This document shows positions 4,563-39,070 of a stretch of DNA of 39,070 nt, piece by piece. Position numbers and translations under genes: made by a program. Numbering within the stretch: position 1 is the first letter of the stretch; the number at the start of each line of letters is the position of its first letter. Under the pieces are notes generated by a model that saw nothing but the letters and a program-made list of their open reading frames with translations, did not search any database and had not been told where the DNA came from. Source of the DNA: a virus; the IMG/VR virus record IMGVR_UViG_3300023174_005200, positions 1-39,070 of that record. One strand, given 5' to 3'.

Positions 4563-5257
4563 TTGCGTTCTCTCGTTGTATCTATGCATTCGATTATCAT
4601 GTCTGCAATTTTTCTATGTGTCATGGAGCCTGGGTGGTCGTCCAGTGGGGCATTGTCTTCTTGTATGTCTCTAATACTGTGCCAGGGATTTATCCATTGT
4701 TGCCAATCGATGAGTTCAAGATTGTTGCGTAATCTTTCACTGAAATCCTGTGTTTCTTTGTGGTCAAGACCCTGGTATAAACTTTGGGCATAGTCACTGG
4801 GTTCACTGCCTGTGAGCATGTCTTCGGTCCAGGGTACCATACCGTTGATGAACCAAATATCTCTACCAGCATCATCGGCCATTTGTTGCAGTATCCTTGT
4901 GTAGTCTATCAATGACATTATATTACCATAGTCATGATTGAGCAATTGATATTGAGCCACAAAGTTCTTGTCCGCCAAATTTTGATCTGTGTAACTGCCT
5001 ATGTAGAATCCGTGTTTGGGGCTAGGGTATACCCAGTGCCGATGTAGCGCACTCCATTGTACAAAATAAACATCATGCTGTCTGTCCAACAAGGCCTTGG
5101 CCGCACGAGTAAAAATTTTAAGATTGCTGGATCCACCTTCGGCACAGTTGTCTGCGTTGCCAATTAAGTTTGGATAGATTCTAGAATCTTGTTGTACATC
5201 ATCAAATCCTGCTCCCATGGTTATGCTACATCCGCCAAAGTAATTTTTTAAACCCAT
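4559..5257 (-). CDS. SGNH/GDSL hydrolase-like protein (1 of 5)
   Basis: A 232-residue protein with SGNH-fold marks: block I GGCSITMG near residue 10 with the nucleophile Ser, a GGSSN segment near residue 42 as block II, and DDHPG near the C terminus as the Asp-His block V. The usual GxND block III is replaced by QWSALHR. It is most like the SGNH-type gene at 15137, sharing FxN..xPW and HPGxxxxxK patterns, so the two look like paralogues. SGNH enzymes are usually esterases or acetyl-transfer enzymes acting on acyl or acetyl groups of sugars and lipids. No signal peptide is present, so it acts in the cytoplasm or on virion parts. Confidence 0.7.
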   Translation of the reverse strand: MGLKNYFGGCSITMGAGFDDVQQDSRIYPNLIGNADNCAEGGSSNLKIFTRAAKALLDRQHDVYFVQWSALHRHWVYPSPKHGFYIGSYTDQNLADKNFVAQYQLLNHDYGNIMSLIDYTRILQQMADDAGRDIWFINGMVPWTEDMLTGSEPSDYAQSLYQGLDHKETQDFSERLRNNLELIDWQQWINPWHSIRDIQEDNAPLDDHPGSMTHRKIADMIIECIDTTRERK

Positions 5258-5958
5258 TGTAATTCCTTTAACTTGGGTAGAATCGCTGTGTCAAACCAAT
5301 GTTGATTTCCCAATGGCCCTTGGTGGCCAAACCATTTGTGCGTTTCAAAATCTGCTGGTTGATTTACATTGTAGTTCACAGAATAGTAAGTGTTTTGATC
5401 TAACAGTATTCGTGGATCGCTGTAGGCTTGTTTTTGTACACTATTTAGAGTAGACCAACCTGTGATTGGCTGAAAGGGCTCAGACAAGTTTAGTATCAGT
5501 ATACGGTTGGTAATTTTTTCTAGATACGCAATCAAGGTTATCAATTGACGTAGTATCTGTGCTTCTTGCCAACTGCGATTCCATTGATCAACGTCTTGTC
5601 TACCAAGCTGGTGGCGAGTCAATTGTTTTAGTCCGCTGTGGCAGGGTACTTCTTTCCGTATAATTTCATTGAGATTATTATCAAACTTAATGTAGTTTTT
5701 TAATCTAGCATCATTTTCAAACACAGTGAGTCGTTCAATGGGAGGTACTCCAATGACCACATAGTCATCTGGGTTGAATAGGTTTGAGTTAGCGACAATG
5801 ATATGAGCGATGCTGTCTATGTTGTTTCCAGGCCAACTAAAGTTTTCAACGCCTTCAATGTCAAGTTTATTGGCCAGTAACCCCCACCACGAATCTCTGG
5901 GTTCAACGCAGAAACCCGGAGTGCTGTAACTGTCACCGTAGATAAACAATCTAGACAT
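5248..5958 (-). CDS. SGNH/GDSL hydrolase-like protein (2 of 5)
   Basis: 236 residues. Block I is FIYGDSYS with the nucleophile Ser at residue 9, the most classical GDS motif of the five SGNH-like proteins here. Block II is WPGNN and block III VIGVPP. The C-terminal DxxH is not obvious; GPLGNQHWF may supply the His. It overlaps the next SGNH gene by 10 bases and the primase gene by 8, so three genes of this fold flank primase in one operon. It lacks a signal peptide. The substrate is unknown. Confidence 0.68.
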   Translation of the reverse strand: MSRLFIYGDSYSTPGFCVEPRDSWWGLLANKLDIEGVENFSWPGNNIDSIAHIIVANSNLFNPDDYVVIGVPPIERLTVFENDARLKNYIKFDNNLNEIIRKEVPCHSGLKQLTRHQLGRQDVDQWNRSWQEAQILRQLITLIAYLEKITNRILILNLSEPFQPITGWSTLNSVQKQAYSDPRILLDQNTYYSVNYNVNQPADFETHKWFGHQGPLGNQHWFDTAILPKLKELQWV

Positions 5959-6910
5959 TGAGTTTCCTTAACAAATTCTTCTTGGCCATCTCTATCTTTA
6001 TACGACTGGTATTTCTAGATTCAAATATGCTCAACATGGTCGCGGCTTTGCCATAGCGGCGAACAGCATCATTGACATCTTTGACATCGGCGGGCCAGTT
6101 GGGCATGCTCACTGCCCAGCCCAGTTCCAGGGCACGGTCAACCAGTTTCATTCCAGCTTCATCATGATCAGGCACCACAGTGACTTCTCGTTCCAGCGAT
6201 CGTATCAAGCGCACCTGTGCATCATTGATTTCAGCGTGTAGCACTGCCAGGCCGCTGACGCACAATGCATCAAACACACCTTCCATGACCAACACATGCT
6301 GCCAGCTGTCTCGTTGCAGGTCTGTGCCAAATACATAGCCATGTTGTATGTCTTGTATGTACTTGGGTGTTCTATCGTCTAGGAATCTAGTGGTATGTCC
6401 TACCACTTGCCCGTCATGTGTAAAAGGAATCACGATACCCGGTCTAGGCATGGTTTTATAAAACAGTGGATAGTCTGTGGGTATGCCACGAGCATTGAGA
6501 TATTCCACAGCTGATTCATTTAGGGGTTGGGTGTCTGCTGGCAAGTCACGGTCTTCAAACTCAATGCCCTGTAACTTATTGATTACCTGTTGACGATCAC
6601 TGAGTATGCCTTCGATGTTCTTGTGCTTGAGACTTTCAAGATTGATACGTTCAATCTCGTTGCGATCTACATTGAGCCAACCCAGTAGCTTTCTAGCTTT
6701 GAACGACAAGTTACGACCCAACACAAAGCTGGCAGTGAATCCGCAGTTGAAGCAATGATAGCTCCAGTCTTGATTTGAGATTTTGATACCGCCACGCTGT
6801 CTACGATCTGCACTCTCTCCATTGTGTACGCAACAGGGTGCATTGAAACTTACCCAGCCCGAACTGGTGCTTTTGCGTTTGCCTGGCAAGTAAGAAAGTA
6901 TGTCTATCAC
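5951..6910 (-). CDS. 61: DNA primase, gp61/DnaG-type with zinc finger and TOPRIM
   Basis: A 319-residue primase that makes RNA primers for lagging-strand synthesis with gp41. The N-terminal zinc-binding domain is visible as CCVH near residues 26-29 and CFNC at 53-56. The TOPRIM domain has EGVFDAL near residue 210, then VPDHDEAG, then DVKDVNDA, which supply the acidic metal ligands. Its length is close to T4 gp61 (342). The start codon is GTG at 6910, which overlaps the preceding stop as GTGA. It lies between SGNH genes rather than directly next to helicase gene 41, which differs from compact replisome clusters. Confidence 0.9.
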   Translation of the reverse strand: MIDILSYLPGKRKSTSSGWVSFNAPCCVHNGESADRRQRGGIKISNQDWSYHCFNCGFTASFVLGRNLSFKARKLLGWLNVDRNEIERINLESLKHKNIEGILSDRQQVINKLQGIEFEDRDLPADTQPLNESAVEYLNARGIPTDYPLFYKTMPRPGIVIPFTHDGQVVGHTTRFLDDRTPKYIQDIQHGYVFGTDLQRDSWQHVLVMEGVFDALCVSGLAVLHAEINDAQVRLIRSLEREVTVVPDHDEAGMKLVDRALELGWAVSMPNWPADVKDVNDAVRRYGKAATMLSIFESRNTSRIKIEMAKKNLLRKLNV

Positions 6911-7647
6911 ACTAGCATTTTAGCATACTTTATGTGTTCAATCAAGTGGTCTGCTATGAGTTGATGGCCTTTTTCATTGGGATGTCCTCCACGAGCAAAA
7001 GGTTCAACATCCAAATCTCGTTTCTTTTGGTTGAGTATGTCTCGGAAATTGGTGCCTGAATAGATAAGACTGGGTGCTGTGACACCATACCGATTTTCCA
7101 ATACTGAAAACTGTACCACAGGTATGCCATACCGGCTCTGTGCTTGGTCAAACAAGTTAATGGTTTGTTGGAAGTTGTATTCGGCCCAGTCAACATGATA
7201 ACTCATGCCCATCCATGTTTTCTGTAGTCGAAACCAATTGTCATCGATGTCTGGGTTGGGCTGTGTGAGCCAGGTACCGTGCATGTGTCGATTCCACTGT
7301 GGATCTTTGCGGCTTACTTCATGCAAGGGATTAAACCAACTTTGTCGAGTGGCATCTGTTAACCCCACTACAAAGATAACATCATCTGTGGGCATGCCAT
7401 TACGCAAATACCACATGAGATTCCAGCGCATGCTTTCCAAACTTGAGCCCGGAAAAGCCATGTTGTCTAATTCTAATCCGTAGTGGTCGGCAATGCGTCC
7501 AGCATAACAATTGGCCAGTCGATAAGGCCTGTTTTCATCATAGTGATCACGGAATTCAGCTTCCGTGAGATCACGGAATTCAGGGGCTACAAGTTCATCG
7601 CCATAGGTCCAACTACAGCCAAATGCCACTAACTTCTTTATCTTCAT
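6907..7647 (-). CDS. SGNH/GDSL hydrolase-like protein (3 of 5)
   Basis: 246 residues. Block I is FGCSWTYG with Ser near residue 11, block II is FPGSS, block III is VVGLTDAT, and block V is GGHPNEKGHQ, in which the His is clear but the catalytic Asp is replaced by Gly. The HPNxxGH ending is shared with the SGNH protein at 9016, forming a second subgroup apart from those at 4559 and 15137. It overlaps both neighbours by ATGA junctions. A GDSL-type esterase acting on an acylated glycan is the best guess. Loss of the Asp leaves activity uncertain. Confidence 0.72.
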   Translation of the reverse strand: MKIKKLVAFGCSWTYGDELVAPEFRDLTEAEFRDHYDENRPYRLANCYAGRIADHYGLELDNMAFPGSSLESMRWNLMWYLRNGMPTDDVIFVVGLTDATRQSWFNPLHEVSRKDPQWNRHMHGTWLTQPNPDIDDNWFRLQKTWMGMSYHVDWAEYNFQQTINLFDQAQSRYGIPVVQFSVLENRYGVTAPSLIYSGTNFRDILNQKKRDLDVEPFARGGHPNEKGHQLIADHLIEHIKYAKMLV

Positions 7648-8645
7648 CTATAAGCGATTGATGTAATGAATCCGTTGTTGACTGCGGCATTGGGATTGTT
7701 GACATAACCTTCACCAGCTGTAACTACCACAGCACCTGTCAGTGTGCCAGCAGATGCAGTGGCATAGGCAGTGGCGCCGGTACCTTCACCTATGATATCA
7801 ATGTTTGGAAACGGTGTAGAAATCCACTGACTGCCTTGATTGTTTATGGTAACGTTGGTTATTTCACCACCGCTGACCAGCACGTTGCCAACCTTGGCCT
7901 TGTAACCGTATTGGTTGACTTCAAAACGAAGATAGTTGTGATATCCTTCTACATTGAAGTGGTCACGTTCGACTTGATTGATATACTGTTTTTGATTGCC
8001 TACATCATACCATGGGCCCAACTGTGTGCTTGAACCCTGGGCTTTGACGTTGCCCGAAAAATTATCAAAGGTCATTTGGAAAGTGACCAGGGGACGACCT
8101 TGTACATACACTGCTGAAGTGTGATTGCGGTTAGGGTTGCTGGCACTGATTTCTGGCTGTGTGGGCACTGTCATTATTTCGCTGGGCACAAATGCAGGAT
8201 ATACTGAATCCACTACATCTGCCGTGCCACGTCCGCCGGAGTAAGCGTTGGTAAACACAGGCTCATACAGCTCGCTGGTCACGGTGTTACGATCCAAACT
8301 CCAGCCCACTGGCTGTGCATCAATGTCGTCTAGTTCAGTGCTGAGCAGGGTGATTTTGGCTCGTCCTGTGGTGGCATTCAGGATTTCCAAATCTTTGCTC
8401 AATAGCAGTATATCGCCGTTGGTACTGATCAGTCTAAATGTAATGGTACTGCCTGAAATGTTTACAGGTTTCTCATCTTGATTAACAAACTCGAATAATA
8501 TGACGTTGTCCACGCCACGATGTATTTTTAAATTTTTTGCGTACACAGGTTGCCACCTCCGTTTGAATGTGTCACCCACACCTGAGGTATCAATCAATAA
8601 TACCTGTTGCTTTTGCTGATATAAATAGGCAGTGGTTGAATACAT
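7644..8645 (-). CDS. Virion structural protein, probably baseplate or tail-fibre associated
   Basis: 333 residues, rich in beta-strand, Thr, Val, Asn and Gly. The N-terminal part (about residues 35-110: hydrophobic strands, FEFVNQDEKPVNISG, FRLIS) resembles the N-terminal sandwich of phage upper baseplate proteins. The C-terminal 90 residues carry a repeat around GEGTGATAYATA and VVVTAGEGYVNNP, a motif common in tail-fibre and appendage proteins. A Shine-Dalgarno AGAGGA lies 8 bases before the ATG, and a late-type box CATAAATA lies just upstream (8670-8663). It heads an operon whose other members are replication and enzyme genes, which is unusual for a virion protein. Confidence 0.6.
   Translation of the reverse strand: MYSTTAYLYQQKQQVLLIDTSGVGDTFKRRWQPVYAKNLKIHRGVDNVILFEFVNQDEKPVNISGSTITFRLISTNGDILLLSKDLEILNATTGRAKITLLSTELDDIDAQPVGWSLDRNTVTSELYEPVFTNAYSGGRGTADVVDSVYPAFVPSEIMTVPTQPEISASNPNRNHTSAVYVQGRPLVTFQMTFDNFSGNVKAQGSSTQLGPWYDVGNQKQYINQVERDHFNVEGYHNYLRFEVNQYGYKAKVGNVLVSGGEITNVTINNQGSQWISTPFPNIDIIGEGTGATAYATASAGTLTGAVVVTAGEGYVNNPNAAVNNGFITSIAYR
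8620..8627 (+). promoter_or_regulatory. T4-type late promoter box for the gene at 8668
   Basis: A perfect TATAAATA on the plus strand. In T4 the start of transcription lies about 6 bases after this box, which gives a leader of roughly 34 bases before the ATG at 8668. The box sits inside the first codons of the divergent gene that starts at 8645. Confidence 0.6.
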
Positions 8646-8662
8646 TTATAATTTCCTCTAGA

Positions 8663-8670
8663 TATTTATG
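8663..8670 (-). promoter_or_regulatory. Late-type promoter box for the operon starting at 8645
   Basis: CATAAATA on the minus strand, one base off the T4 late consensus, followed by AGAGGA (8659-8654) and the ATG at 8645. It overlaps the start codon of the plus-strand gene at 8668, so the two divergent promoters cross each other. Confidence 0.5.
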
Positions 8671-9045
8671 GGCACAGAAATCTTTGCAAAAATAGCAGAA
8701 CGCTACCCCTTTATCACCTTCTGTACCTACGCTGGCAACGAATACATAGGCGTGGTGCAAAATCGCGACGATGCTGTAACAACTATCTACGATTTTGGAA
8801 ATATACAACATGCAGAGCTCAAAAAGCTATTTCTTGAACTGGCCAATCAATGGTGGTGGGAAAGCAACCGTAGCATACCTATAAACATATTCTTGAAAAA
8901 CGATTGGGAAATTTTCCGTCCGTATTTGCGCACTTTTGTCAATAAAGATCTAGAAATCTTGCATGGTCCTGCAACCAGTTTGGCTGATATTGCCCGCAAG
9001 AAAAGCAAAAGAAAATCAATAACTCTGGTACGTAGAGTCGATTAA
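8668..9045 (+). CDS. Conserved phage protein, unknown function
   Basis: A 125-residue protein and one of only four genes on the plus strand in the window. It has a mixed alpha/beta composition, a Trp-rich segment (QWWWESNR) and a basic C terminus (ARKKSKRKS). A perfect late promoter box lies 40 bases upstream, so late expression is likely. Its 3' end overlaps the convergent SGNH gene by 30 bases. The basic tail could bind nucleic acid, but I recognise no domain. Confidence 0.7.
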   Translation: MGTEIFAKIAERYPFITFCTYAGNEYIGVVQNRDDAVTTIYDFGNIQHAELKKLFLELANQWWWESNRSIPINIFLKNDWEIFRPYLRTFVNKDLEILHGPATSLADIARKKSKRKSITLVRRVD

Positions 9046-9717
9046 CTGAGTTAGTATCTTGGCAATTAACTCGTGCCCAGCAGTGTTTGGGTGCCCAATT
9101 TCTCCAGCCTGACCGTTGGCATCATAGAAGTAGTCTCCTGGGGTCAATTCTGCAAACAAACTATCATTGAGCAAATCCATTACAGCAGGATCTTTGCGTA
9201 ATTCATAGCATAAAGATGTTGCGGCAAGTTCCTGACGTTGTTGAACATCCTCAACCAGCGATGGAAAAGCATAGATCAAATAGCTGATGCCTTGTTGTTT
9301 GAAATACGATGCCAACATCAGCACGTCTGAACTTAATGCAGTAAACTCGGCCCTGGCATCAAATTGATTGACAAATGCTGTCATAAACTCGCCACCTTCT
9401 TGTGGTTTGATAGACTCATGATAGTCTTCTCTATCAAACTTCCAACTGTTGTTGTCATTGACTGCAGAATACTGTTCAGTGCGATGTAAGAAAGTCAACT
9501 GTATCAACGCCAAGGTATTGGGTGGAAAATCTATAGCATCTCTTACTGTGCTTCTAATAATGCGTCTGTTACAGGAGTTGGGTTTGCCAGCATTTTGCAG
9601 GGTGGCATTGTAGTGCTTGGCTACGAGATCTCCATAGACCACTTCACCACGATCTCTTCGGTACCAGTCTCCGGTAAACGAACACCCATTGGTGTAGACA
9701 TGATCAAACTTTTTCAT
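9016..9717 (-). CDS. SGNH/GDSL hydrolase-like protein (4 of 5)
   Basis: 233 residues. Block I is TNGCSFTGD with Ser near residue 13, and block V is EIGHPNTAGHE, with the His clear but no Asp three residues before it. It shares the HPNxxGH ending with the protein at 6907. It is the last gene of the operon that begins at 17060, and its 3' end overlaps the plus-strand gene at 8668. Upstream it overlaps the miniature polymerase-like gene by 14 bases. The substrate is unknown; no signal peptide is present. Confidence 0.7.
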   Translation of the reverse strand: MKKFDHVYTNGCSFTGDWYRRDRGEVVYGDLVAKHYNATLQNAGKPNSCNRRIIRSTVRDAIDFPPNTLALIQLTFLHRTEQYSAVNDNNSWKFDREDYHESIKPQEGGEFMTAFVNQFDARAEFTALSSDVLMLASYFKQQGISYLIYAFPSLVEDVQQRQELAATSLCYELRKDPAVMDLLNDSLFAELTPGDYFYDANGQAGEIGHPNTAGHELIAKILTQLIDSTYQSY

Positions 9718-10273
9718 TGATCAAGTTCATGTGCAAGGCTACCAACGATGCATAGCTCACAGCATGGGCTTTTTTGAACGTATACCCTCGGCTGTCGTCA
9801 CCATCCCACACTGAGTCAAACACTTCCGCCCAGGGCTTGTGTTGTAAGTGTGCTTTGCCTGGACGAATAATAGATATAAAAGCTGCCATCCTGGGTATCG
9901 AGTCTGGCTTCATTGAGGCCAACAGATCCACATAGTTACCCACGTGTACCAACTGAGAGGCCCAGGGTTGGTCAGTCCACAGCCGTTGCCATGGAGGCTC
10001 CTGCGTCAGCATTTGTTCATAATGCTCAGGATTTTGAATCAGTTTATAAACACTCATGTTCAGCAGATCAATCTTGAAATACCCACGTTGTTCTGCTTCA
10101 CGATAATCTACACTGGAACAATTTAGCAAAGGATCTCTAGGAATGTCTGTGACATAGATTCCAGAGTTATGCAAACGACTTTGCCCATCGTTGTCCTGTC
10201 TTGCCGGTGTATGCTTTATTAACTTTAAGATGATATCTCTATCAGCCAAGTCAATGTCAATATCTGCGCTCAT
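9704..10273 (-). CDS. Miniature family-C DNA polymerase (DnaE)-like palm/fingers protein
   Basis: 189 residues carrying, in the right order, motifs that match bacterial DNA polymerase III alpha. ADIDIDLADRD at 3-13 matches PDFDVDF, which holds the first two catalytic Asp; here these would be D4 and D6. LHNSGIYVTD at 34-43 matches the HAGGVVI segment. FKIDLLNM at 66-73 matches the KFDFLGL that holds the third Asp; here D69. AFISIIRPGK at 131-140 matches the LxxLFRPGP segment, and GYTFKKAHAVSYA at 163-175 matches GYGFNKSHSAAYA in the fingers. The PHP, thumb, OB and clamp-binding parts are absent. It overlaps its neighbours by 4 and 14 bases. Whether it polymerises is unknown. Confidence 0.6.
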   Translation of the reverse strand: MSADIDIDLADRDIILKLIKHTPARQDNDGQSRLHNSGIYVTDIPRDPLLNCSSVDYREAEQRGYFKIDLLNMSVYKLIQNPEHYEQMLTQEPPWQRLWTDQPWASQLVHVGNYVDLLASMKPDSIPRMAAFISIIRPGKAHLQHKPWAEVFDSVWDGDDSRGYTFKKAHAVSYASLVALHMNLINEKV

Positions 10274-11445
10274 GATTTGTCCGCGGTTAGTAAAATATTA
10301 TACAGTATTTCACTACTCTTTGCATGTGTTACGGTTGAAAAACATTGTCTATAGTTGCTTTCCAAAATTTGTCTAGCATGGTCACTTTGGAAAACTTCTG
10401 GGTTATCATAGAGCCATTTTACTGCATCAACAAACCCATGATATCGTTGTTGGTGATCTTCAATTTGGTCAAACTGTTTTAGTGAGTCGGGCAACAGGTC
10501 CCAGGCAGTGGCTAGCCCCAACTGATTATAAAGATAGTAAATGTTGGCACCACCCAATGGCATTGGAATATTGCCTGTAAAAAAGCATTTCCAGGCTTTT
10601 TCAGTCAACGCCAATTCGTTATTTTGCCAAGTGCTTTCTGGGAAAATAACACACCGATACTCATAGTATTCGGGCATCAACAGATAGCCCGGTAGTATCT
10701 CACCAAATTTACCGTCACTGCCAAGAGGTATACCTTCTTGATAATAGTTGGTGTGGTCACGGCCTTGTCCGCGAGGTTGATATTGTTCTTGATATCGATC
10801 GTTTACCCATTTCCGAAAAGCAGTGTCTTTGGAACTTTCAAAAAAACTATCCACGGTGCGAACCAGTCTATTGTAATTTGAAATAACAGGAAGATCTGGT
10901 ATAGCATGTTTTAACATATCAACAGAATGATGTCGCCATGATCTATTGGCACCGTTGATATAGATCATATTTTTATCGCGTACAATATTTTTATAGTGCT
11001 GTGGTCTGTAGGCTGTGGGATATCTTGAATCTAACCAATATTCTTTTACAGCATAGTGATCTTGAAACACTGGTATGTATCGTTGACTGTAGGCATGATC
11101 AGAGTGTAGATACGAATCAATCACTATGTAGGCATGATCAAATTGTTGTAAAATCTCAACAGCATGTTCACTTGAAGTGACCAAAGGATCAGCGTGATTA
11201 TCTAAAAAAATTAAATCGTATCTATCAGCATTGTCTAGTTGTTCTCGGGGAAAAGGGTCAGACAGTAGATCTATATACAGTATATTTAGATAATCCTGAC
11301 GGAAATCACCAGGGTCTGTTATAATCCAGGAAAGATCTGGACCTTGTTCCCACTGATTGTTGTGATGCCATGCTTGTAAAAAATCAAAAATCATCAGTCC
11401 CACTAGATCTTTTTTTGAACTCTGTACGTTAAGCTTCATTACCAT
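10270..11445 (-). CDS. Putative glycosyltransferase-like protein
   Basis: 391 residues of alpha/beta type with many Tyr, Asp and His. The region around residues 275-300, ALTEKAWKCFFTGNIPM, matches a TEKxxK....P pattern also present in the protein at 25977 (ITEKTFKAMAWYQFPL). In GT-B glycosyltransferases of the fucosyltransferase type, a similar segment binds the sugar nucleotide. The N-terminal half shows Rossmann-like strands (RYDLIFLDNHAD, AYIVIDSYLH). A nearby ATG at 11439 would give a TAATG junction with the upstream gene and is an equally good start. The acceptor is unknown. Confidence 0.5.
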   Translation of the reverse strand: MVMKLNVQSSKKDLVGLMIFDFLQAWHHNNQWEQGPDLSWIITDPGDFRQDYLNILYIDLLSDPFPREQLDNADRYDLIFLDNHADPLVTSSEHAVEILQQFDHAYIVIDSYLHSDHAYSQRYIPVFQDHYAVKEYWLDSRYPTAYRPQHYKNIVRDKNMIYINGANRSWRHHSVDMLKHAIPDLPVISNYNRLVRTVDSFFESSKDTAFRKWVNDRYQEQYQPRGQGRDHTNYYQEGIPLGSDGKFGEILPGYLLMPEYYEYRCVIFPESTWQNNELALTEKAWKCFFTGNIPMPLGGANIYYLYNQLGLATAWDLLPDSLKQFDQIEDHQQRYHGFVDAVKWLYDNPEVFQSDHARQILESNYRQCFSTVTHAKSSEILYNILLTADKS

Positions 11446-12137
11446 CCTGCTTTCTTTAAAATCTCTTTGGCATATTCTTGGTCTGCTGGGTAATCACGAA
11501 ACTTCTTTTGCCAAAACTCAGGATCGATCCAAGGCCACACAATTTTAGTTTGGTCTGGATCCATGTTTTCTAACCAGGCTTGCCCACTGTCACAGTTATA
11601 CAATACCCAGGCGCTGATACGTCCAGTACTGACAGCATAGGCTATGGTATTGTCGTTGCCATAACGCAGGAAATCGTGTGCAGGATGATTGTGTGTTTCT
11701 GCCCAAGTAATAGAATATTCTACAGCACGAGACAGAGCATCAGTCACTGATTCTCGGCGTAGATAGTCTGTGAGATATTCGGTATAGATTGCATCGCGAC
11801 ACCAGTGATCAATCTTTTTATTTTTTTCCACTACCCAATCAATGAACCTTGCTGTATTGACAGCATTGATAGCCACACAGTGACGTCCAAATTTTACAAA
11901 AGCACGATAGTAAGGTGAGCGAGCAAAGTCATCAAATGTTTTGAGCTTGGCACTGCCTTGAGTCATTGTGTAAAAACGTAGATAGGCCTGTAATCCTAGT
12001 TGTACTCCACGATCATTTTGACTTTGGTAACGTTGTTTTTGTTCGCATACATGCACAGCAAGACTGGTCTCTCGCTGGAACCCTTTCTCGCAGTACTGGC
12101 ACACATACTCAGTCTTTATCTGCGTGGCCGTGCTCAC
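11439..12137 (-). CDS. Zinc-finger phage protein, unknown function
   Basis: 232 residues. The N terminus has a C2H2/C2HC-type finger: CQYC at residues 14-17, a Phe/Leu spacing typical of fingers, then HVCEQK, with His and Cys as the second ligand pair. The remaining 190 residues are helical and rich in aromatic residues (for example FDDFARSPYYRAFVKFGRH), without a known domain. The start is a GTG at 12137, overlapping the upstream gene by 29 bases. It could bind DNA or a replisome component; co-location with UvsW and the putative clamp loader suggests a part in replication or late transcription, but this is inference. Confidence 0.6.
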   Translation of the reverse strand: MSTATQIKTEYVCQYCEKGFQRETSLAVHVCEQKQRYQSQNDRGVQLGLQAYLRFYTMTQGSAKLKTFDDFARSPYYRAFVKFGRHCVAINAVNTARFIDWVVEKNKKIDHWCRDAIYTEYLTDYLRRESVTDALSRAVEYSITWAETHNHPAHDFLRYGNDNTIAYAVSTGRISAWVLYNCDSGQAWLENMDPDQTKIVWPWIDPEFWQKKFRDYPADQEYAKEILKKAGW

Positions 12138-12555
12138 GTTGATACTCCTTGATATCTTTCTTTGTTACAAAGTTGGCTAGAGTTTCAATGTCTGATATTT
12201 TCATTGCTGGGAACTGATCTAACAAAAACTTTTTGACTTCGTTACTGCCTGCTTCTTTTTTCTTGGGAGCAATCCATTGATGACGATGCGTTCCCATGCC
12301 TGGGCTTACTGATGTAGCGGCCAGCCATTGTAGTTTGGGATGTTTGTTTATGGCAAAGAAATGTTTGTTTAATCTTTCGTTGGTAGCAATGAGATAAAAC
12401 TCTTGCAGTTCTGATGATCCGTGTACTGCTGAGCCCCAGCGTATCATGAGATAGTTTGAGAACTTCTTGCGCTCTTCATCTGTAAGGCTGTCATAGAATC
12501 CGCGATTCTTCTGATCAAACTGCATCATCTCATTTTGTATACTCAGCTTTTCCAT
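12109..12555 (-). CDS. Possible clamp-loader small subunit (gp62-like)
   Basis: 148 residues, starting at the ATG at 12555, which overlaps the preceding stop as TGATG. The pattern of a short helical protein with a YLMIRWGS segment, several N/L-rich helices, a basic KKKEAG stretch and a C-terminal VTKKDIKEYQREHG resembles the phage clamp-loader A subunit family that works with gp44 to load the sliding clamp. The resemblance is loose and judged by eye. No gp44 or gp45 is in the window; the AAA protein at 17180 is not a convincing gp44. Confidence 0.4.
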   Translation of the reverse strand: MEKLSIQNEMMQFDQKNRGFYDSLTDEERKKFSNYLMIRWGSAVHGSSELQEFYLIATNERLNKHFFAINKHPKLQWLAATSVSPGMGTHRHQWIAPKKKEAGSNEVKKFLLDQFPAMKISDIETLANFVTKKDIKEYQREHGHADKD

Positions 12556-13055
12556 CACCAGGCCTTGTTGTAATCTATGACTTCACAGTTGCGTGAAATA
12601 TCCTTGACAAAATAAACACAGTCGGGTTCTGGATCATTGCTCAATGGAATACACAGTATCTGTCCATTTTTAAGTTTGGGCGCATACCAGGCCACATCAT
12701 GATAAACGTCTACAATTTCTATGTCAAGGAAACTGGGTCTAAAACTGGTCAAGGGATTGAACTGGAATGCTTTGAATCCTCGATCGTTGATTGATGTCAA
12801 GGGGAGCATTTCCAAGTCGCCAAGGTCGGGCTCGCCTATGAGTATTTGCCAGTCTATGGGCATGCGTATTTTATTTTGACCAATCTGTAGTACCAGAGCC
12901 GGCGAGTTAAAACTTTCCAAGAAGATCAGCGGAATGTAATGATAGTCTGGATCCGACGGATCTGAATTATCCAGGATAGCAAAACGCATGTCGTCCACTT
13001 CTTCGGGTAGCGTATCTAAATCGTAAGCAGTATTATCTAAAGTCAGTATTTTCAT
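12555..13055 (-). CDS. Conserved hypothetical protein
   Basis: 166 residues from the ATG at 13055; an alternative ATG at 13070 adds five residues but overlaps the upstream stop. The protein is acidic and beta-rich, with repeated hydrophobic-proline turns (YIPLIFLES, EMLPLTS, CIPLSNDPEPD). I recognise no domain. It lies between a methyltransferase and the putative clamp-loader gene in the operon starting at 17060, and its TGA overlaps the next start, so it is probably translated together with it. Confidence 0.6.
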   Translation of the reverse strand: MKILTLDNTAYDLDTLPEEVDDMRFAILDNSDPSDPDYHYIPLIFLESFNSPALVLQIGQNKIRMPIDWQILIGEPDLGDLEMLPLTSINDRGFKAFQFNPLTSFRPSFLDIEIVDVYHDVAWYAPKLKNGQILCIPLSNDPEPDCVYFVKDISRNCEVIDYNKAW

Positions 13056-13062
13056 AGTATTA

Positions 13063-13668
13063 TTATACAATATAATTTTTGTAGCCGCGACCTAATATTA
13101 CACCATTGTCACGACTTTGTAGTAATCCAAATCCATGCATAAGCAAGTAAGGCACAACCGTTCCTCCTTTGCCAATGTACACTCCATTGTATGTGTAGGT
13201 ATCGTCAACACAAATCACGCACTGGTCACTCATGCGTGGTAGTAGATTAGCCATCTGGATTAAATGACTAATCTGACTATTCATATTGGACATTGTCAAT
13301 CCATAACGTTGATACCAGGTCTGTTGCTCCTGGATCATAGTAGATGTTTTTGTTGTTTCCCAATCCCAATCAAAGTTGTCCAAATATAACACTTTGATAT
13401 TTTCAAGCAAGGTGTTTTTAGTCCACTCCACTGCTTCAGCACAATGAAACTCACAGTTGTTGTGCCAATCTTGTGGTATATTCCTTTGTGCTCGTTGTAT
13501 GGCCATGTGGTCAAGATCCACAGTGGCAAATTTCATTCCGTGTTGTTGAGCAAGGTCTGCAAAATAGTAGGTAGAGCCTTCAAATCGATCACTGCCAATT
13601 TCTAAAACAACAGCGTCTGGATGTTGTCCTTGAACATGCTCTCCCACACGGGTAAACAAATTGCCCAT
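13063..13668 (-). CDS. Class I SAM-dependent methyltransferase-like protein
   Basis: 201 residues. Motif I is VVLEIGSDRFEGST near residues 20-34, the glycine-containing loop that binds S-adenosylmethionine. FATVDLDH follows as the acidic strand-2 end, and KVLYLDNFDWDW lies in the motif IV position. I start it at the ATG at 13668, which gives a TAATG junction with the uvsW stop; an upstream GTG at 13683 is possible. No target-recognition domain or DPPY-type catalytic motif of DNA methyltransferases is visible, so the substrate may be a glycan, protein or small molecule. Confidence 0.6.
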   Translation of the reverse strand: MGNLFTRVGEHVQGQHPDAVVLEIGSDRFEGSTYYFADLAQQHGMKFATVDLDHMAIQRAQRNIPQDWHNNCEFHCAEAVEWTKNTLLENIKVLYLDNFDWDWETTKTSTMIQEQQTWYQRYGLTMSNMNSQISHLIQMANLLPRMSDQCVICVDDTYTYNGVYIGKGGTVVPYLLMHGFGLLQSRDNGVILGRGYKNYIV

Positions 13669-15140
13669 TAGGTTGTCATCCACTCTAGTTTTTCTTGTGT
13701 GAAAGGATAACGTGCTTCTTTGTAAAACTGTTTGCGTTTGGTCAAGTGACGTTTGGCAAACTTACAGGTCGACGTTATGTCCCAGATTTGGACGTGGTCT
13801 TTGTCTTCAGCTTTTCTAATACCTCGCCCAATGCTCTGTATAACTCGGACAAAGCTCTTTCCGGGTTCCACAAGCACCAAATTGAAAATCCTAGGAATGT
13901 TAATACCAACAGCAGCCACACCATAGGTAGCAACAATAATTTTATCAGTGGCCTCAGCCACTTCGTCATATTCATCCTGTCTGTCCTTTGCTTTGGTTGC
14001 GCCCGATACAAACACAGCTCGATCGCCTAGTCGTTTGACCAACTCCTGTCCTGCTGTGATACGATCCACTAATATCAACGTGTTGCCAGTTTCATTTACT
14101 TTCTGTATTAGACTGGCCATGGTATCTAGTCTACCCGACTCCTCTAACAGATACTTTAATTCGCTTTGGTAGTTATTGTACTCTACATGATCAACCAACT
14201 GCACAATGTTCACGTGGCACTGTGCCAACACACCTCGATCTTGCAATTCAGCGGCTGCCAATCTTGACACTACCGGACCAATGCTGACATGTATGGCCTG
14301 GTATTCAAAATCTTCTTTGGGTATAGTTCCTGTCAATCCCCAGCGAATTGGCACTTCCGACATTACACCGGTAAGCAGAGTTTTAAGTGCATCTGCTTTG
14401 GCCATGTGTACTTCATCCACTATCACGCAGATCACACCTTCTAAGAACTCACCTATGGTGCAATCTTCTGCGGCTGATCCTGCTTTGGTATTCTTAAGCA
14501 ATACATTTAAACTCTGCCAGGTGCAGATGGTGTGTTGACGACCCCATTCTTTACGGTCGCCAAAATATACACCCACATCCAGTTCCATGTTGATGTAGTC
14601 TTTTTCTGTTTGCGTTACCAAGCTCTTGTTAGGAACAATCACTATGCTCCGTCCATATGGTGTCACTGCATGGCTCAAGGCCGCTGTCATGATAGTCTTA
14701 CCTGCTCCTGTGGCCACTTCTTGCAGGCACTGTGGGTTGGATAGAAAATTGTTTACTATGTCAACTTGGTAGTCACGCATCATGATAGGTTCACCAGCTT
14801 GTGGATGTCCTTTGGGCCAGGAGATATCTTTAAATGTATCTTCTTTGACTTGTTCAAAGTCAAAGGTAGTAGAATACTCGCGTTGATCATCAAGTTCAAT
14901 GTCGTAGTTGTACTCTTCCAAGATAGGAATAATCTCGGGTAGCAGATTTACATAAGTGCTACCGCCCAATTGAAAATAACTTACCTTACCATCCCATCGC
15001 CCCAGGCGTACCGCTGGAAGATACCTGGCATACGGAACATCGTATTTGAACTTATTGACCAATGCTCGTCGAGCATCCAGTTCCAGTCCTTCAATTTTGA
15101 CGTTGACTTCGTCTCTTATGATCAATTTAGCTAGTTTCAA
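13668..15140 (-). CDS. uvsW: UvsW-like DNA/RNA helicase (superfamily 2)
   Basis: In T4, UvsW unwinds branched DNA and R-loops and drives the switch from origin-dependent to recombination-dependent replication. This 490-residue protein is close to T4 UvsW (503). An N-terminal domain of about 115 residues (with ARYLPAVRLGRWDGKVS) precedes the helicase core. The core has a Q-like MRDYQ, Walker A ATGAGKT at 143-149, DEVH as motif II near residue 240, LTGTIP as motif III, and QSIGRGIRK as motif VI. The start is a TTG at 15140 overlapping the previous stop as TTGA; no better ATG is near. Confidence 0.92.
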   Translation of the reverse strand: MKLAKLIIRDEVNVKIEGLELDARRALVNKFKYDVPYARYLPAVRLGRWDGKVSYFQLGGSTYVNLLPEIIPILEEYNYDIELDDQREYSTTFDFEQVKEDTFKDISWPKGHPQAGEPIMMRDYQVDIVNNFLSNPQCLQEVATGAGKTIMTAALSHAVTPYGRSIVIVPNKSLVTQTEKDYINMELDVGVYFGDRKEWGRQHTICTWQSLNVLLKNTKAGSAAEDCTIGEFLEGVICVIVDEVHMAKADALKTLLTGVMSEVPIRWGLTGTIPKEDFEYQAIHVSIGPVVSRLAAAELQDRGVLAQCHVNIVQLVDHVEYNNYQSELKYLLEESGRLDTMASLIQKVNETGNTLILVDRITAGQELVKRLGDRAVFVSGATKAKDRQDEYDEVAEATDKIIVATYGVAAVGINIPRIFNLVLVEPGKSFVRVIQSIGRGIRKAEDKDHVQIWDITSTCKFAKRHLTKRKQFYKEARYPFTQEKLEWMTT

Positions 15141-15922
15141 TTTGGTTCCATTTTTGTTTTTAAAATAGGAGAGAGATATTCAACATATTTTTTTTGACTA
15201 AGATATCCTGGATGCCGATCAGTTTCTGATACATGGTCAATTTGCATTGATCTCAATGATTGATAAAGATTTAACCAATGGGATTCTTGAATTCCACCAG
15301 CTTGGGCATACTGAGAATGTATCATGTTATAAAGATCGAGAACTTCTGCATCATCTCTTGTTTCGGCTTGCAATAAATCCTGTTCATACTCTGTAAGATC
15401 CGAGGGTAACGTAATTTTTTTCTGATCAAAGTATCCCGGAGACCATGGCAACAGTGTGTTTACAAAAAATATTTTCCCGCCGCTGGTTTGTTGACAACGT
15501 GTTAATACATTGACATACTTAACTAAATCTAATGTGTCCCAATGATCGTTGTGTATTCTGCGCAGATTATCGCCAATTTGATTTAACCAACTGGCTTTAT
15601 AAGTAACTCCAGGATTGACATTGACATCCACAGATCTTTCTAACCTAGTTAGTACAGGGTATAATTCTAGTCCGGCATGAATATTAAACCTAGGAATAGC
15701 AGACCAGGCCACTAGCACAATGTCATAATGATTTTTTGTGATTTCAGTTAGAGTTTCTAAAAAAATCCAATGGTTGTTTCTAGCAGGCTTTGCAATATTT
15801 TTTACTGTTCCAAATGATTCAAAAATGGCATTCGTCCAAAGTTGCGGATCATCTTGTTCATATTCCAATCCATGACCTTGTGTCATTGAACAACCAACTG
15901 CTAAAATTTTTAGATCTTTCAT
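15137..15922 (-). CDS. SGNH/GDSL hydrolase-like protein (5 of 5)
   Basis: 261 residues. Block I is VGCSMTQGHG with Ser at residue 11, block II IAKPARNN, block III VAWSAIPR, and block V ETDRHPGYLS, with Asp and His present. It resembles the protein at 4559 throughout (similar spacing, FFVNTLLPW against WFINGMVPW), so the two appear to be paralogues now placed in two different operons. It directly follows a radical SAM gene with a 10-base gap and precedes uvsW with a 4-base overlap. Confidence 0.72.
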   Translation of the reverse strand: MKDLKILAVGCSMTQGHGLEYEQDDPQLWTNAIFESFGTVKNIAKPARNNHWIFLETLTEITKNHYDIVLVAWSAIPRFNIHAGLELYPVLTRLERSVDVNVNPGVTYKASWLNQIGDNLRRIHNDHWDTLDLVKYVNVLTRCQQTSGGKIFFVNTLLPWSPGYFDQKKITLPSDLTEYEQDLLQAETRDDAEVLDLYNMIHSQYAQAGGIQESHWLNLYQSLRSMQIDHVSETDRHPGYLSQKKYVEYLSPILKTKMEPN

Positions 15923-35314: not shown

Positions 35315-35851
35315 ATGAGCGATACGCTAATACTAGCGCCGGACTATCAACCGGTCAACTACTTGCCACTTTCAACCATAGATTGGCAAACTGCTATTAA
35401 ACTGTTCTTCCTGGACAAAATCCAAGTGTTGGAATGGTATGATGATTGGACTGTACGCAGTGCTCGACTAGAGATGCGGGTGCCCGCTGTGGCCGTGACC
35501 AAACGAGGTTTTGGTAAAAACGGAGGCATGCGGTTCAGTAGACAGAATCTATATCTACGTGACTTGTTTACTTGCCAATATTGCAATGATACTTTCAACG
35601 GCAAAGAACTAACCATAGACCATGTGCTACCTCGTAGCCACGGTGGTGTTACCAGTTGGGAAAATTGTGTCACAGCATGTAAAGAGTGCAATGCTGAAAA
35701 AGGATCAAAGATCTGGAGACCAAACAAAACTCCAGTGAAACCCAATTACTGGGCCTTGGTTAATTCCGTGAAAAGCACTTATACAGGTGTGCGTCATCCC
35801 AGCTGGAATGCTTACCTAGGCCTTAAAGAATCAAAATCCAAAGTTATTTAA
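35315..35851 (+). CDS. HNH endonuclease
   Basis: 178 residues from the ATG at 35315. CQYC at 87-90 and CKEC at 122-125 form the structural zinc site. IDHVLPRSHGG at 101-111 holds the first catalytic residues, and WENCVTAC, with Asn117, completes the HNH site. The N-terminal 80 residues (LAPDYQPVNYLPLSTIDW) belong to the type seen in free-standing HNH proteins of phages and bacteria. Its place beside gp17 suggests a role in packaging or genome processing, or it may be a homing nuclease. It is convergent with the nuclease at 35844 by 8 bases. Confidence 0.88.
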   Translation: MSDTLILAPDYQPVNYLPLSTIDWQTAIKLFFLDKIQVLEWYDDWTVRSARLEMRVPAVAVTKRGFGKNGGMRFSRQNLYLRDLFTCQYCNDTFNGKELTIDHVLPRSHGGVTSWENCVTACKECNAEKGSKIWRPNKTPVKPNYWALVNSVKSTYTGVRHPSWNAYLGLKESKSKVI

Positions 35852-36548
35852 AAGGAAAACGCATACCAGTGGCCTCTTCCACTGCTGGTAGAGGCACTTG
35901 ATACTTGGGCAAGTCTGCCACGGGTAATGCGGCATTGGGCATCAAGTATGCCATTGTTTGTCCAGATGTCTTTTCGTGTATGACTTTGTATAGGCGTGTG
36001 GGTATGCCCAGACCGTTGCCTGTCACAGGATGGCCAGGATCAAAAATGCCACCAGAGATGATGTAAAAGTCACCGCCTTTTGATGCCCAGTCGCGCTCCC
36101 AAGTTTCCAACTGTTTCCAGATCCCACGGTTATTGTTGGCTACCTGTGCGACCATGTTTGACAAGAAGAAACTCTCACTCATGATCTGATCATTTTGAGT
36201 GTTGTTGCCAGCAGGTGCCATGTGTCCTCGATCGTGTGTGCGACCCACAGTGGCGTAGTCTGCTAGTGTAGCTTGGCACTCAGGATGCACAGCAGGATCA
36301 GCTCGGAAGTTATCCTTGCGTTTGGCTGGTCCTGTCATGGCAGCCACTGTGAGATGTTCAAACACAGCCACAGGCGCTTTGACTGAACAACGATGGATCA
36401 CGGCATAGTTGGTCTTGCATAACTCTTGATCTCCGGGCTGTGCTTGATAAGCAGGTGTGCCATGACTGGTAAACTGTGGGCACTGAGCATTGATCTGTGC
36501 AAACACAGATAACGGAACAAATAGTAGAACAAATAATAGTTTTTTCAT
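35844..36548 (-). CDS. Secreted DNA/RNA non-specific endonuclease (NUC family)
   Basis: 234 residues. Residues 1-17 are a signal peptide (KK, a hydrophobic stretch and SVFA at a likely cut after residue 17). The catalytic DRGHMAPAGN begins with D106-RGH109, and FFLSNMVAQ and NNNRGIWKQLE supply the Asn that holds the magnesium ion. This is the beta-beta-alpha-metal family of Serratia and Anabaena nucleases. Three Cys pairs could form disulfides after export. It starts just after the fibre gene's stop, within a structural block. A role in degrading DNA outside or in the periplasm is likely. Confidence 0.9.
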   Translation of the reverse strand: MKKLLFVLLFVPLSVFAQINAQCPQFTSHGTPAYQAQPGDQELCKTNYAVIHRCSVKAPVAVFEHLTVAAMTGPAKRKDNFRADPAVHPECQATLADYATVGRTHDRGHMAPAGNNTQNDQIMSESFFLSNMVAQVANNNRGIWKQLETWERDWASKGGDFYIISGGIFDPGHPVTGNGLGIPTRLYKVIHEKTSGQTMAYLMPNAALPVADLPKYQVPLPAVEEATGMRFPFK

Positions 36549-36550
36549 TT

Positions 36551-38137
36551 TTATATCTCAAAGAATCCTACATCGCCGCCCAGCTTTACATTGTTTGAAT
36601 CTGCCGTAACACAAACGCACAAAACATCGCTGTTTCCAGCAATAGTTCTACCTATCTGCCAACGGAATAAGTCTCCGGCCAAAGACACAGGTTCACCTTT
36701 GTTTACTACGTATCCAGAACCTAAAACAGTACCGCCTGTAACTGTGACGTTGGATGTTGTTGATTGGGTAAATGTTGTGACATTAGACCAGGTTGGTGCA
36801 ACACTGAATGTAGGGTTGAGTATTAGTCTCCACTGCATGTTTTGATTACTGTCGCTGAGTACGTTGACATTGTCAAGGTATACTACTTTGTTATAGTTTA
36901 TACCGTCAGTGCCCAATCGTAAACTAACTGAGTTATAAAATGTTCCAGCAGTGGACATAGTATAATAAGTCAACCCGCGGCCGGTGAATTGTTGTTCAGC
37001 GGATGGTGCGTATCCGCCCGATGATATAACACTGGAGCAAATCTGTTTCATCGAAGCTCCGGTGGTAGTACCTGTATTTGTTATTTCTAATCTTATACTT
37101 TGTTGGGCACTTTGCATGTAAGTAGAAGTATCTATGTTTGCATGATCAAATCTATGTGCAAAGTAATAGGTTCCTTCTATGATAAATCCGCAGAATACAC
37201 TACCTACACCTAGCCATTCAATGGCTGTGTAAAGTATTTGTACTTTGGAAAGATTGATGTCTATTCCGCTGGGTCCTGCACCATTTAGCGGATCAATATT
37301 CCAGGAACTTTGTTGTACTCGAGTTTCGGTATAGGTTGACGAGCCTGTTTGTTTTCTTATGACCAAATAATAGGTACCGCCATTGTCTTCAAGATACACG
37401 CCGTTGTATGCTGTAAAATATCCTATGCGCTGGCGCAGATTAGGTTGACTATTAGCAAAAGCAAAAGTTTCAAATATCTCTAATGCCTTGCCAGGTTGAT
37501 AAGGAAAAGTTCTATAACTTTGACGCACAACTTGATCTCCAGAGGCTGTGCCTACTGTCATCGAAACTGCACTTGAATATACGTCGTACGATGTAGATCC
37601 AGTACCTGTAAGGGCTGTGTCAAACTTTCCGTTGTCTGCTGATCCAATAAATGCTGAATCAAACAATGTATAAGGTTCAGCAACACGCAAGCGACCAAAA
37701 GCATCTATACTGCCAGCTCCTAACGAAGCACTAATATTGCCACCTGTCACTGACACGTTGCCAGATACGTTCCAAGGGTCTGTACCTTGTACAACTTTTA
37801 CGTTGCCAGTGATACCTGCAATGTTACCGGTGATACCTGCAATATTGCCAACGACTCCAACATTGCCCGATGTAACTACCACATTGCCTTCGACCATCCA
37901 GGGATCTGTGCCTTGATATACCGTGACGTTGCCTGCTTCTACTGTAACAGGCAAAGTATTGCCTGTTAAATCAACATTGCCCAGGGCACCAATGGAAACG
38001 TTACCCACTGAGACGTTGCCAATCAGCGCGGCATTAGTCCGGACAAATACATTGCCTGTGGCTTCGTCAAGTTCCAGGGCCTGCGTTATATTACGCAGGT
38101 ACCATGGTGCGACTTCTGTGGGATTTGGTGTTGCCAT
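36551..38137 (-). CDS. Virion fibre/appendage protein with Gly-Asn repeats
   Basis: 528 residues. Residues 28-140 contain many short repeats around GNV and GNI (for example GNIAGIT occurring twice in tandem, and two copies of QGTDPW), a pattern that would form a beta-helix or fibre shaft. The rest is beta-rich with a SIDAFGRLRVAEPYTLFDS segment at 150-170 that begins a folded domain, probably a jelly-roll. No Cys-rich or enzymatic motif is seen. It starts with a TAATG junction after the paralogous small protein gene. It probably belongs to the tail fibre, neck or whiskers. Confidence 0.7.
   Translation of the reverse strand: MATPNPTEVAPWYLRNITQALELDEATGNVFVRTNAALIGNVSVGNVSIGALGNVDLTGNTLPVTVEAGNVTVYQGTDPWMVEGNVVVTSGNVGVVGNIAGITGNIAGITGNVKVVQGTDPWNVSGNVSVTGGNISASLGAGSIDAFGRLRVAEPYTLFDSAFIGSADNGKFDTALTGTGSTSYDVYSSAVSMTVGTASGDQVVRQSYRTFPYQPGKALEIFETFAFANSQPNLRQRIGYFTAYNGVYLEDNGGTYYLVIRKQTGSSTYTETRVQQSSWNIDPLNGAGPSGIDINLSKVQILYTAIEWLGVGSVFCGFIIEGTYYFAHRFDHANIDTSTYMQSAQQSIRLEITNTGTTTGASMKQICSSVISSGGYAPSAEQQFTGRGLTYYTMSTAGTFYNSVSLRLGTDGINYNKVVYLDNVNVLSDSNQNMQWRLILNPTFSVAPTWSNVTTFTQSTTSNVTVTGGTVLGSGYVVNKGEPVSLAGDLFRWQIGRTIAGNSDVLCVCVTADSNNVKLGGDVGFFEI
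37740..37990. repeat. DNA repeats encoding the Gly-Asn fibre shaft
   Basis: A tandem 21-base unit (GTGATACCTGCAAT followed by a 7-base remainder) and two imperfect copies of the segment for QGTDPW lie here. They follow the protein repeats and are not a CRISPR array. Confidence 0.6.
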
Positions 38138-38523
38138 TATCGTGGGTATCCCTTAAATGGTTTGATTGGACTTACTTTGTCAACAAATGCTGGTTCGTCG
38201 CTCTGTGGAGTGCTAACTAGCTTTTTGCCGCCGGGTGTCTTGGTCATCCTCAATGCTTGGTCAATGATGGGATCTACAGTGTTGTTGAATCCTGCTATCA
38301 CACCATTTTCACCAAAAGCTGTTTCTGATGTCCACTCAGGGCGATTGGGATTTACGGTGTCAGGCTGTGCATCACTGCGGGCTCTGGCTATGGCCACACC
38401 AAAGCGATAATTCTTGTAAGGATCGGCTGCGCTGAGCCCAGGTATTATGTAAGTGTAGCGCATGGGATCTGCCTGCTCAGGTGGCAGATCTTTTTGTTCG
38501 GTTATAAACTCACGAGCTCTCAT
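38137..38523 (-). CDS. Small protein with possible capsid-targeting leader (paralogue A)
   Basis: 128 residues. The N terminus MRAREFITE is the same as in the neighbouring protein at 38520, and both end in SP(I/V)KxFKGYPR. The middle parts differ completely. MRAREFITE is like the short targeting leader of T4 internal proteins (MKTYQEFIAE), and FITE fits the (I/L)xE cleavage pattern of the T4 head protease. If so, the protein would be packaged in the head and processed. It overlaps the next gene by a TAATG junction and the paralogue by an ATGA junction. Confidence 0.6.
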   Translation of the reverse strand: MRAREFITEQKDLPPEQADPMRYTYIIPGLSAADPYKNYRFGVAIARARSDAQPDTVNPNRPEWTSETAFGENGVIAGFNNTVDPIIDQALRMTKTPGGKKLVSTPQSDEPAFVDKVSPIKPFKGYPR

Positions 38524-38939
38524 CGTGGATATCCTTTAAATGCTTTGACGGGACTTTTTATATTGGTATCAGTGGGTTCCTGGCTACCCGGAGGAGCTAT
38601 GTTGCGTATTCTACCGCCTAAGCGTTTGGCCGCGTATTTGATTTTCTCATCATCTTCGTCTGTGTAACCAGATAAGATAGGACTGTTAGCGATGTATGAC
38701 TCCTCATCGGCTATATCTTGTGTGGGGCCGCCTGCCATGATCATACCCATACGATACAGGTCATAGTATTTGTCAAGATTATCTATGGCCATGGCACCTG
38801 GACTAGTAGCCACGTACCAGTTGTCAGGATGACCTTTGTGGTGCTTGCCACGTGATCGTCTACGGCCAGTAGACTGATCGTGGTCAAGGGCATCGAAACT
38901 CTGACCACCATCCTCAGTGATAAACTCACGTGCTCGCAT
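38520..38939 (-). CDS. Small protein with possible capsid-targeting leader (paralogue B)
   Basis: 139 residues. It shares the MRAREFITE N terminus and the SPVKAFKGYPR C terminus with the protein at 38137. The middle is basic at first (GRRRSRGKHHKGHP) and then acidic (YTDEDDEKIKYAAKRLGG), unlike that of its paralogue. The basic stretch could bind packaged DNA. The head-protein reading is inference from the N terminus; no known enzyme domain is seen. It is preceded by the end of a virion protein gene, with ATG two bases before that gene's stop. Confidence 0.6.
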   Translation of the reverse strand: MRAREFITEDGGQSFDALDHDQSTGRRRSRGKHHKGHPDNWYVATSPGAMAIDNLDKYYDLYRMGMIMAGGPTQDIADEESYIANSPILSGYTDEDDEKIKYAAKRLGGRIRNIAPPGSQEPTDTNIKSPVKAFKGYPR

Positions 38940-38941
38940 GG

Positions 38942-39070
38942 TTAGAACACGCTTTCTTGAGCCGAGCTTGCTGTTCCTAATTCAAGTGCAGTGAATGGGG
39001 TTCCTGTCACAGTGACTTTGTTTCCAGCACCGGCATAGACTTCAAACACAGTGTTGGCTGGTATGTTGAT
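38942..39070 (-). CDS. C terminus of a virion protein (5' part outside window)
   Basis: Only the last 42 residues are visible (INIPANTVFEVYAGAGNKV, then a Thr/Ala-rich stretch ending SAQESVF). They read without a stop to the edge of the window. The composition is typical of a beta-rich structural protein, but the piece is too short to name. It is followed directly by the paralogue B gene. Confidence 0.6.
   Translation of the reverse strand: MNIPANTVFEVYAGAGNKVTVTGTPFTALELGTASSAQESVF

Follow-up and report, generated by a model that had tools for sequence, protein, structure and literature searches.

A family of paired small proteins with a T4-like leader and a shared tail, probably internal head proteins of jumbo T4-like phages

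The closest described counterparts of the proteins studied here are the internal proteins of phage T4. Capsid targeting by the T4 leader depends mainly on residues 4 and 7 and processing on residues 8 and 10, with the gp21 protease cutting after L/I-x-E (PMC9026906). IPII and IPIII are encoded by two adjacent small genes that start with the same leader, MKTYQEFIAE, which is annotated as removed. The phiKZ-type jumbo phages (e.g., SPN3US) also have internal head proteins whose N-terminal propeptides are removed by the prohead protease (PMC10052503), but these propeptides have 20 to 254 residues and another cleavage motif. In cyanophage S-RIM12, gp134 (109 aa) starts with the leader MKSYNEFISE and is encoded directly upstream of a phrog_1645 gene.

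The two genes that we analysed, A and B, are similar to those of IPII and IPIII in that they are small, adjacent and start with one short leader that ends in EF-I-x-E and contains the [L/I]xE protease motif, in a group of phages whose genomes encode a gp21-type protease. The sequence-only reading from which we started had proposed that this leader resembles T4 capsid-targeting sequences and has an [I/L]xE cut site, and the match to the annotated IPII/IPIII propeptide bears this out. The differences are nevertheless substantial. The leader of A and B has nine residues, begins with MRAxEF and lacks the aromatic residue found at position 4 in T4 (Tyr4). The mature proteins have no homology to IPII/IPIII (hhalign aligns only the EFI.E stretch of the leader), are near neutral whereas T4 internal proteins are basic (a typical rather than strictly defining property), carry a conserved C-terminal tail and have cores homologous to each other. 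The T4 leader is found on unrelated bodies; here, similar leaders are also borne by a DUF6321 protein and by two neighbouring families of unrelated proteins. As for S-RIM12 gp134, it shares with A and B the leader type and the position before a phrog_1645 gene, but its mature part is unrelated and lacks the SP...FxGY tail.

A conserved gene pair in jumbo phages

Both genes are on the minus strand of the window, by which we mean the whole 39-kb IMG/VR virus record that was analysed, a fragment whose relatives are T4-like jumbo phages (~340 kb). The features are the following:

36551..38137, minus strand: gene C, virion structural protein (phrog_1645, head and packaging; E 1.8e-93), directly downstream of A
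38137..38523, minus strand: protein A, 128 aa, with leader, two-helix core and tail (open reading frame present; 79 related loci; AF2 model)
38140..38172, minus strand: tail of A, SPIKPFKGYPR (sequence, family alignment)
38404..38418, minus strand: core motif YKNYR of A, residues 36-40, in predicted helix 1 (alignment and AF2; Tyr in 99% and Arg in 100% of members)
38497..38523, minus strand: leader of A, MRAREFITE, with a predicted prohead-protease cut after E9 (family alignment and T4 comparison)
38520..38523, minus strand: ATGA, the 4-nt stop/start overlap of B and A (open reading frame coordinates)
38520..38939, minus strand: protein B, 139 aa, with leader, two-helix core and tail, directly upstream of A (open reading frame present; AF2 model)
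38523..38555, minus strand: tail of B, SPVKAFKGYPR (sequence, family alignment)
38751..38765, minus strand: core motif YDLYR of B, residues 59-63, in predicted helix 1 (alignment and AF2)
38913..38939, minus strand: leader of B, MRAREFITE, with a predicted cut after E9 (family alignment)
38942..39070, minus strand: 3' part of the small gene that precedes B and is truncated where the window ends (product of ~92 aa in the related record G002)

The order on the minus strand is thus B (38939 to 38520), A (38523 to 38137) and gene C (38137 to 36551). A family search placed a T4-type large terminase near A and B in the window. Between gene C and the terminase there is a DNA/RNA non-specific endonuclease with a signal-peptide-like start (35844-36548, minus strand; PF01223, E 1.1e-37; phrog_14168), which is retained in G002. 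Elsewhere in the window (4559-15922), the open reading frames at 4559, 5248, 6907, 9016 and 15137 start with motifs like GDSYS, GCSWTYG, GCSFTGD or GCSMTQG, which by eye suggest SGNH-hydrolase-like proteins.

The common start and end of A and B, from which the sequence-only reading had set out, were recovered: the first nine residues do not differ, and the last 12 agree at 9 positions. Five leader codons differ between the two genes, all synonymously, and in the last 12 codons three differences are synonymous and three change the residue. Since the leader differences are all synonymous, selection acts on the protein and the shared ends are not a recent copy of DNA, which rules out recent duplication or gene conversion of the ends. 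Nor are they due to chance, since both ends are kept in 244 distinct relatives and the leader is enriched over shuffled sequences in G002 (see below).

The nearest relatives of the window are a 75-kb record (A 91% and B 96% identical) and G002, of 343,632 bases (A 75%, B 81%). Searching IMG/VR with A returned 79 loci, and an alignment-based search extended the family to at least 573 relatives, in contigs of up to 524 kb among the matches listed. The sequence-only reading had proposed looking for proteins that combine leader and tail. In IMG/VR this was fruitful, as the 244 distinct relatives attest, but tblastn against the cultured phages of INPHARED with A, B and members of the B3, T, marine, D-type and KYGV-tail groups gave no relevant match. 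A and B have no match in Pfam, PHROGs or PADLOC, among the family members scanned no two matched the same PHROG, and the literature on capsid targeting in combination with cyanophages or metagenomes has nothing on this family. We conclude that the A/B family is real, widespread and undescribed, and that it is a variant of the T4 internal-protein plan.

The pairing of the two genes is part of this conservation. Among the 77 A loci with upstream sequence, the stop of B overlaps the start of A by 4 nt in 57 and by 1 nt in 15. The pair is split in only three (L034, L035 and L037), by a leader-bearing DUF6321 protein of 97 aa that sits ~100 codons before A; in the last two (L077 and L079), A runs off the contig end. 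The nine large records have two members each (three in one of them), always in a single place and none elsewhere in the record.

Leader, core and tail

The layout of leader, core and tail can be read directly from the alignment of the 244 members: the columns of leader and tail have a mean entropy of 0.76 and 0.86 bits, those of the core one of 2.49 bits. Position 6 of the leader, which corresponds to position 7 in T4, is Phe in 243 members, position 7 is I, V, L or M in all 244, and position 9 is Glu in 238; the aromatic of T4 position 4 has no counterpart (Ala or Ser at residue 3, residue 4 variable). The six members without E9 (L059, L066, L071 twice, L072 and L076) keep MRAxEF, followed by four extra residues and then KITE, VLSE, NLKE, KINE or NLGE. 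These insertions fall exactly between the part of the leader that serves targeting in T4 and the part that serves processing (PMC9026906), and count as at least two or three independent cases because some of these members share ancestry.

In G002, 6 of the 447 open reading frames have the strict leader pattern, whereas 2000 shuffles gave 0.08 on average and never more than 2; one of the six matches is weak (MSGEYVFE). Four leader-bearing open reading frames lie within 4 kb, A and B among them. The other two code for proteins unrelated to A and B, one of 200 aa that starts with MKTFAEYLTE and weakly matches phrog_14802 (virion structural) and one of 224 aa that starts with MKTLREYITE. The arrangement is repeated in most of the other large genomes. 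In bacterial genomes, the DNA pattern of the leader was found only as chance stretches, all without the tail. The leader is thus very probably a capsid-targeting propeptide that is cleaved off, judging from these patterns and from its likeness to T4.

Other proteins have leaders of this kind. Two in G002 start with MRAxEFV[SA]E, lack the tail and match no family (L100:6662-7189, 176 aa; L099:16260-16574, 105 aa); they are possible further head cargo. The DUF6321 protein (96-97 aa, basic; PF19846, E 7.8e-11) has an MRAxEF[IV]xE leader without the tail and is also found in L137 and L163; a stretch similar to it ends gp135 of cyanophage S-RIM12. Just downstream of A, an unrelated protein (L008:4384-4764) has a leader-like MRASEF start and no [IL]xE cut site.

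The middles of A and B had been described as different, which holds for their sequences but not for their origin. When leader and tail were removed, hhalign gave probabilities of 97 for B1-T, 93 for A-B3, 90 for B1-B3 and 90 for B1-B2, all comparisons between separate subfamilies. The direct A-B1 comparison is weak (14%), so that the homology of A and B rests on intermediates. Through these, the cores are homologous, and A and B are diverged paralogues rather than one frame with exchangeable payloads; this profile comparison rules out a swap of unrelated payloads. Some core positions are as fixed as the ends, namely the YxxxR motif (Tyr 99%, Arg 100%) and the S-x-E before the tail (98% and 100%). 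The AF2 models have two helices each, at matching positions: 35-52 and 83-94 in the A precursor (mean pLDDT 86.6, pTM only 0.57), 58-68 and 94-106 in B (mean pLDDT 70.4). Mature net charge is +1 in A, -1 in B and +0.6 on average in the family, i.e., near neutral. The PDB has no relative of A or B, by sequence or by fold. The length of A is matched by the predicted fold of A0A6J5KNQ7 in BFVD (TM 0.67, E 8.5e-4). This protein comes from an uncultured Caudovirales phage, is uncharacterised and probably belongs to the family.

The tail had been noted as conserved and not accounted for by the T4 model, which stands, but it is not a fixed FKGYPR: relatives end in SPxxFxGY, which may or may not be followed by other residues. 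S, P, F, G and Y are the fixed positions, and the final PR is dispensable, since several members end in FxGY or FxGYK. A scan with the core motif found relatives that agree in core and in leader type but have other tails (SPVAKPKKNKYGV, SPVADWMKK and others). The tail thus varies by clade (FKGYPR, KNKYGV and others), and as only its SP(V) start is general, it seems to be an arm of the family whose form depends on the clade. That paralogues of roughly 25-40% identity retain it would be explained most simply by a head partner in common, and whether the tail docks on such a partner seems to us, from the sequences, an evenly balanced question. In most of the nine genomes, GVNTKSP or a sequence close to it forms the end of a gp67-like core protein that is encoded directly upstream of gp21 (L107:11473-12309, L210-L217). 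This end resembles the first half of the family tail, a weak hint that is suggestive only because the pattern was picked after being seen.

Internal head proteins and the alternatives

Of 13 related records, nine encode a gp21-type protease (Peptidase_S77, PF03420), and every record above 150 kb is among these; the four without it are fragments of 39-128 kb, and none was found in the window, itself a 39-kb fragment. In the major capsid protein gp23 (PF07068, E 4e-99 in G002), an invariant YL(K/R)E followed by N precedes the mature region in each of the nine large records. By the sequences of gp23 and gp21, these phages are T4-like.

Our favoured explanation, which we regard as probable, is that A and B are diverged paralogues serving as internal head proteins of ~13-14 kDa in jumbo T4-like phages, with a cleavable leader and a docking tail. 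MRAxEF would bind the prohead core during assembly, and the gp21-type protease would then cut after the Glu of [ILV]xE, freeing the mature protein inside the head. The latter is predicted to be a small two-helix domain (YxxYRxGxAxA, then the second helix) with extended arms, of which the near-invariant C-terminal S-x-E...SPVxxFxGY would dock all paralogues on one conserved head component. Mature A and B would remain in the head as constitutive parts, not as swappable effectors. The location alone, i.e., that the mature proteins reside in the virion, is likely. The sequences argue strongly for targeting and cleavage; retention in the head, docking and any ejection into the host are inferred.

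The sequence-only reading had suggested that A and B could be packaged proteins, injected into the host, with interchangeable payloads, which we take here as a shared leader and tail around unrelated effectors. There are precedents for this, since T4 internal proteins carry one leader on unrelated bodies, and similar leaders occur here on unrelated neighbours and on the inserted DUF6321 protein. Yet the interchangeable payloads do not survive the comparison of the cores: A and B are homologous, nearly always adjacent and present together in all nine large records, unlike swapped anti-host effectors, and the tail is confined to their family. We thus regard injection of such effectors as unlikely. 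A role in the prohead core or scaffold, with the proteins being cut and largely lost on maturation like gp67 and gp68 of T4, would fit the [IL]xE propeptide and the tail-like end of the gp67-like protein just before gp21, but a single N-terminal cut site marks retained proteins in T4, where core proteins are cut into several pieces (PMC9026906), and this makes it improbable. The genes around A and B include tail and neck as well as head genes, so one could also imagine that the leader is an uncut peptide docking on the neck or tail of the virion. The [ILVM]xE site is perfectly kept even when shifted by insertion, and gp21 coexists with a gp23 that has LxE sites, which leaves very little room for an uncut leader.

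Fusion proteins and wider significance

When the B model was compared with BFVD by Foldseek, nothing stronger came up than weak matches to parts of larger phage proteins, of which two are named cytidyltransferase-like; this led us to search for fusions. In three contigs, a larger open reading frame has the module at its C-terminal end: L268 (8680-12099; 1140 aa), L300 (9914-11206, minus strand; 431 aa) and L344 (2186-3541; 452 aa). At the joints, MRANEFIKKQLSE and MRAQEFIRKQLAE are each followed by GD, and QIYE by AKA, so that the [IL]xE site is kept though no longer N-terminal. The partner in L344 is cytidylyltransferase-like, weakly and below the cut-off (PF01467, E 0.0012), that in L268 resembles FAD synthetase at E 0.01 only, and that in L300 has no Pfam match. 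These fusions may be lost stop codons or assembly errors. Speculatively, and with rather low confidence, the two-helix module and its SP...(FxGY or KNKYG) tail could form a domain for head docking in general, which brings its own sorting signal at the C-terminus and is joined to other proteins (nucleotidyltransferase-like ones included) as polyproteins whose joint [IL]xE would be cut by the prohead protease inside the head.

The family described here is unnamed, occurs in hundreds of contigs of uncultured phages and is common among giant T4-like phages from lakes and seas. With it, capsid targeting in the manner of T4 is extended, at the strength given above, to jumbo phages of fresh water and sea, and M[RK]..EF[ILV]xE provides a simple rule by which candidate head cargo may be listed from sequence alone. 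The tail of A and B, in turn, raises the testable question of whether a C-terminal signal works beside the N-terminal one.
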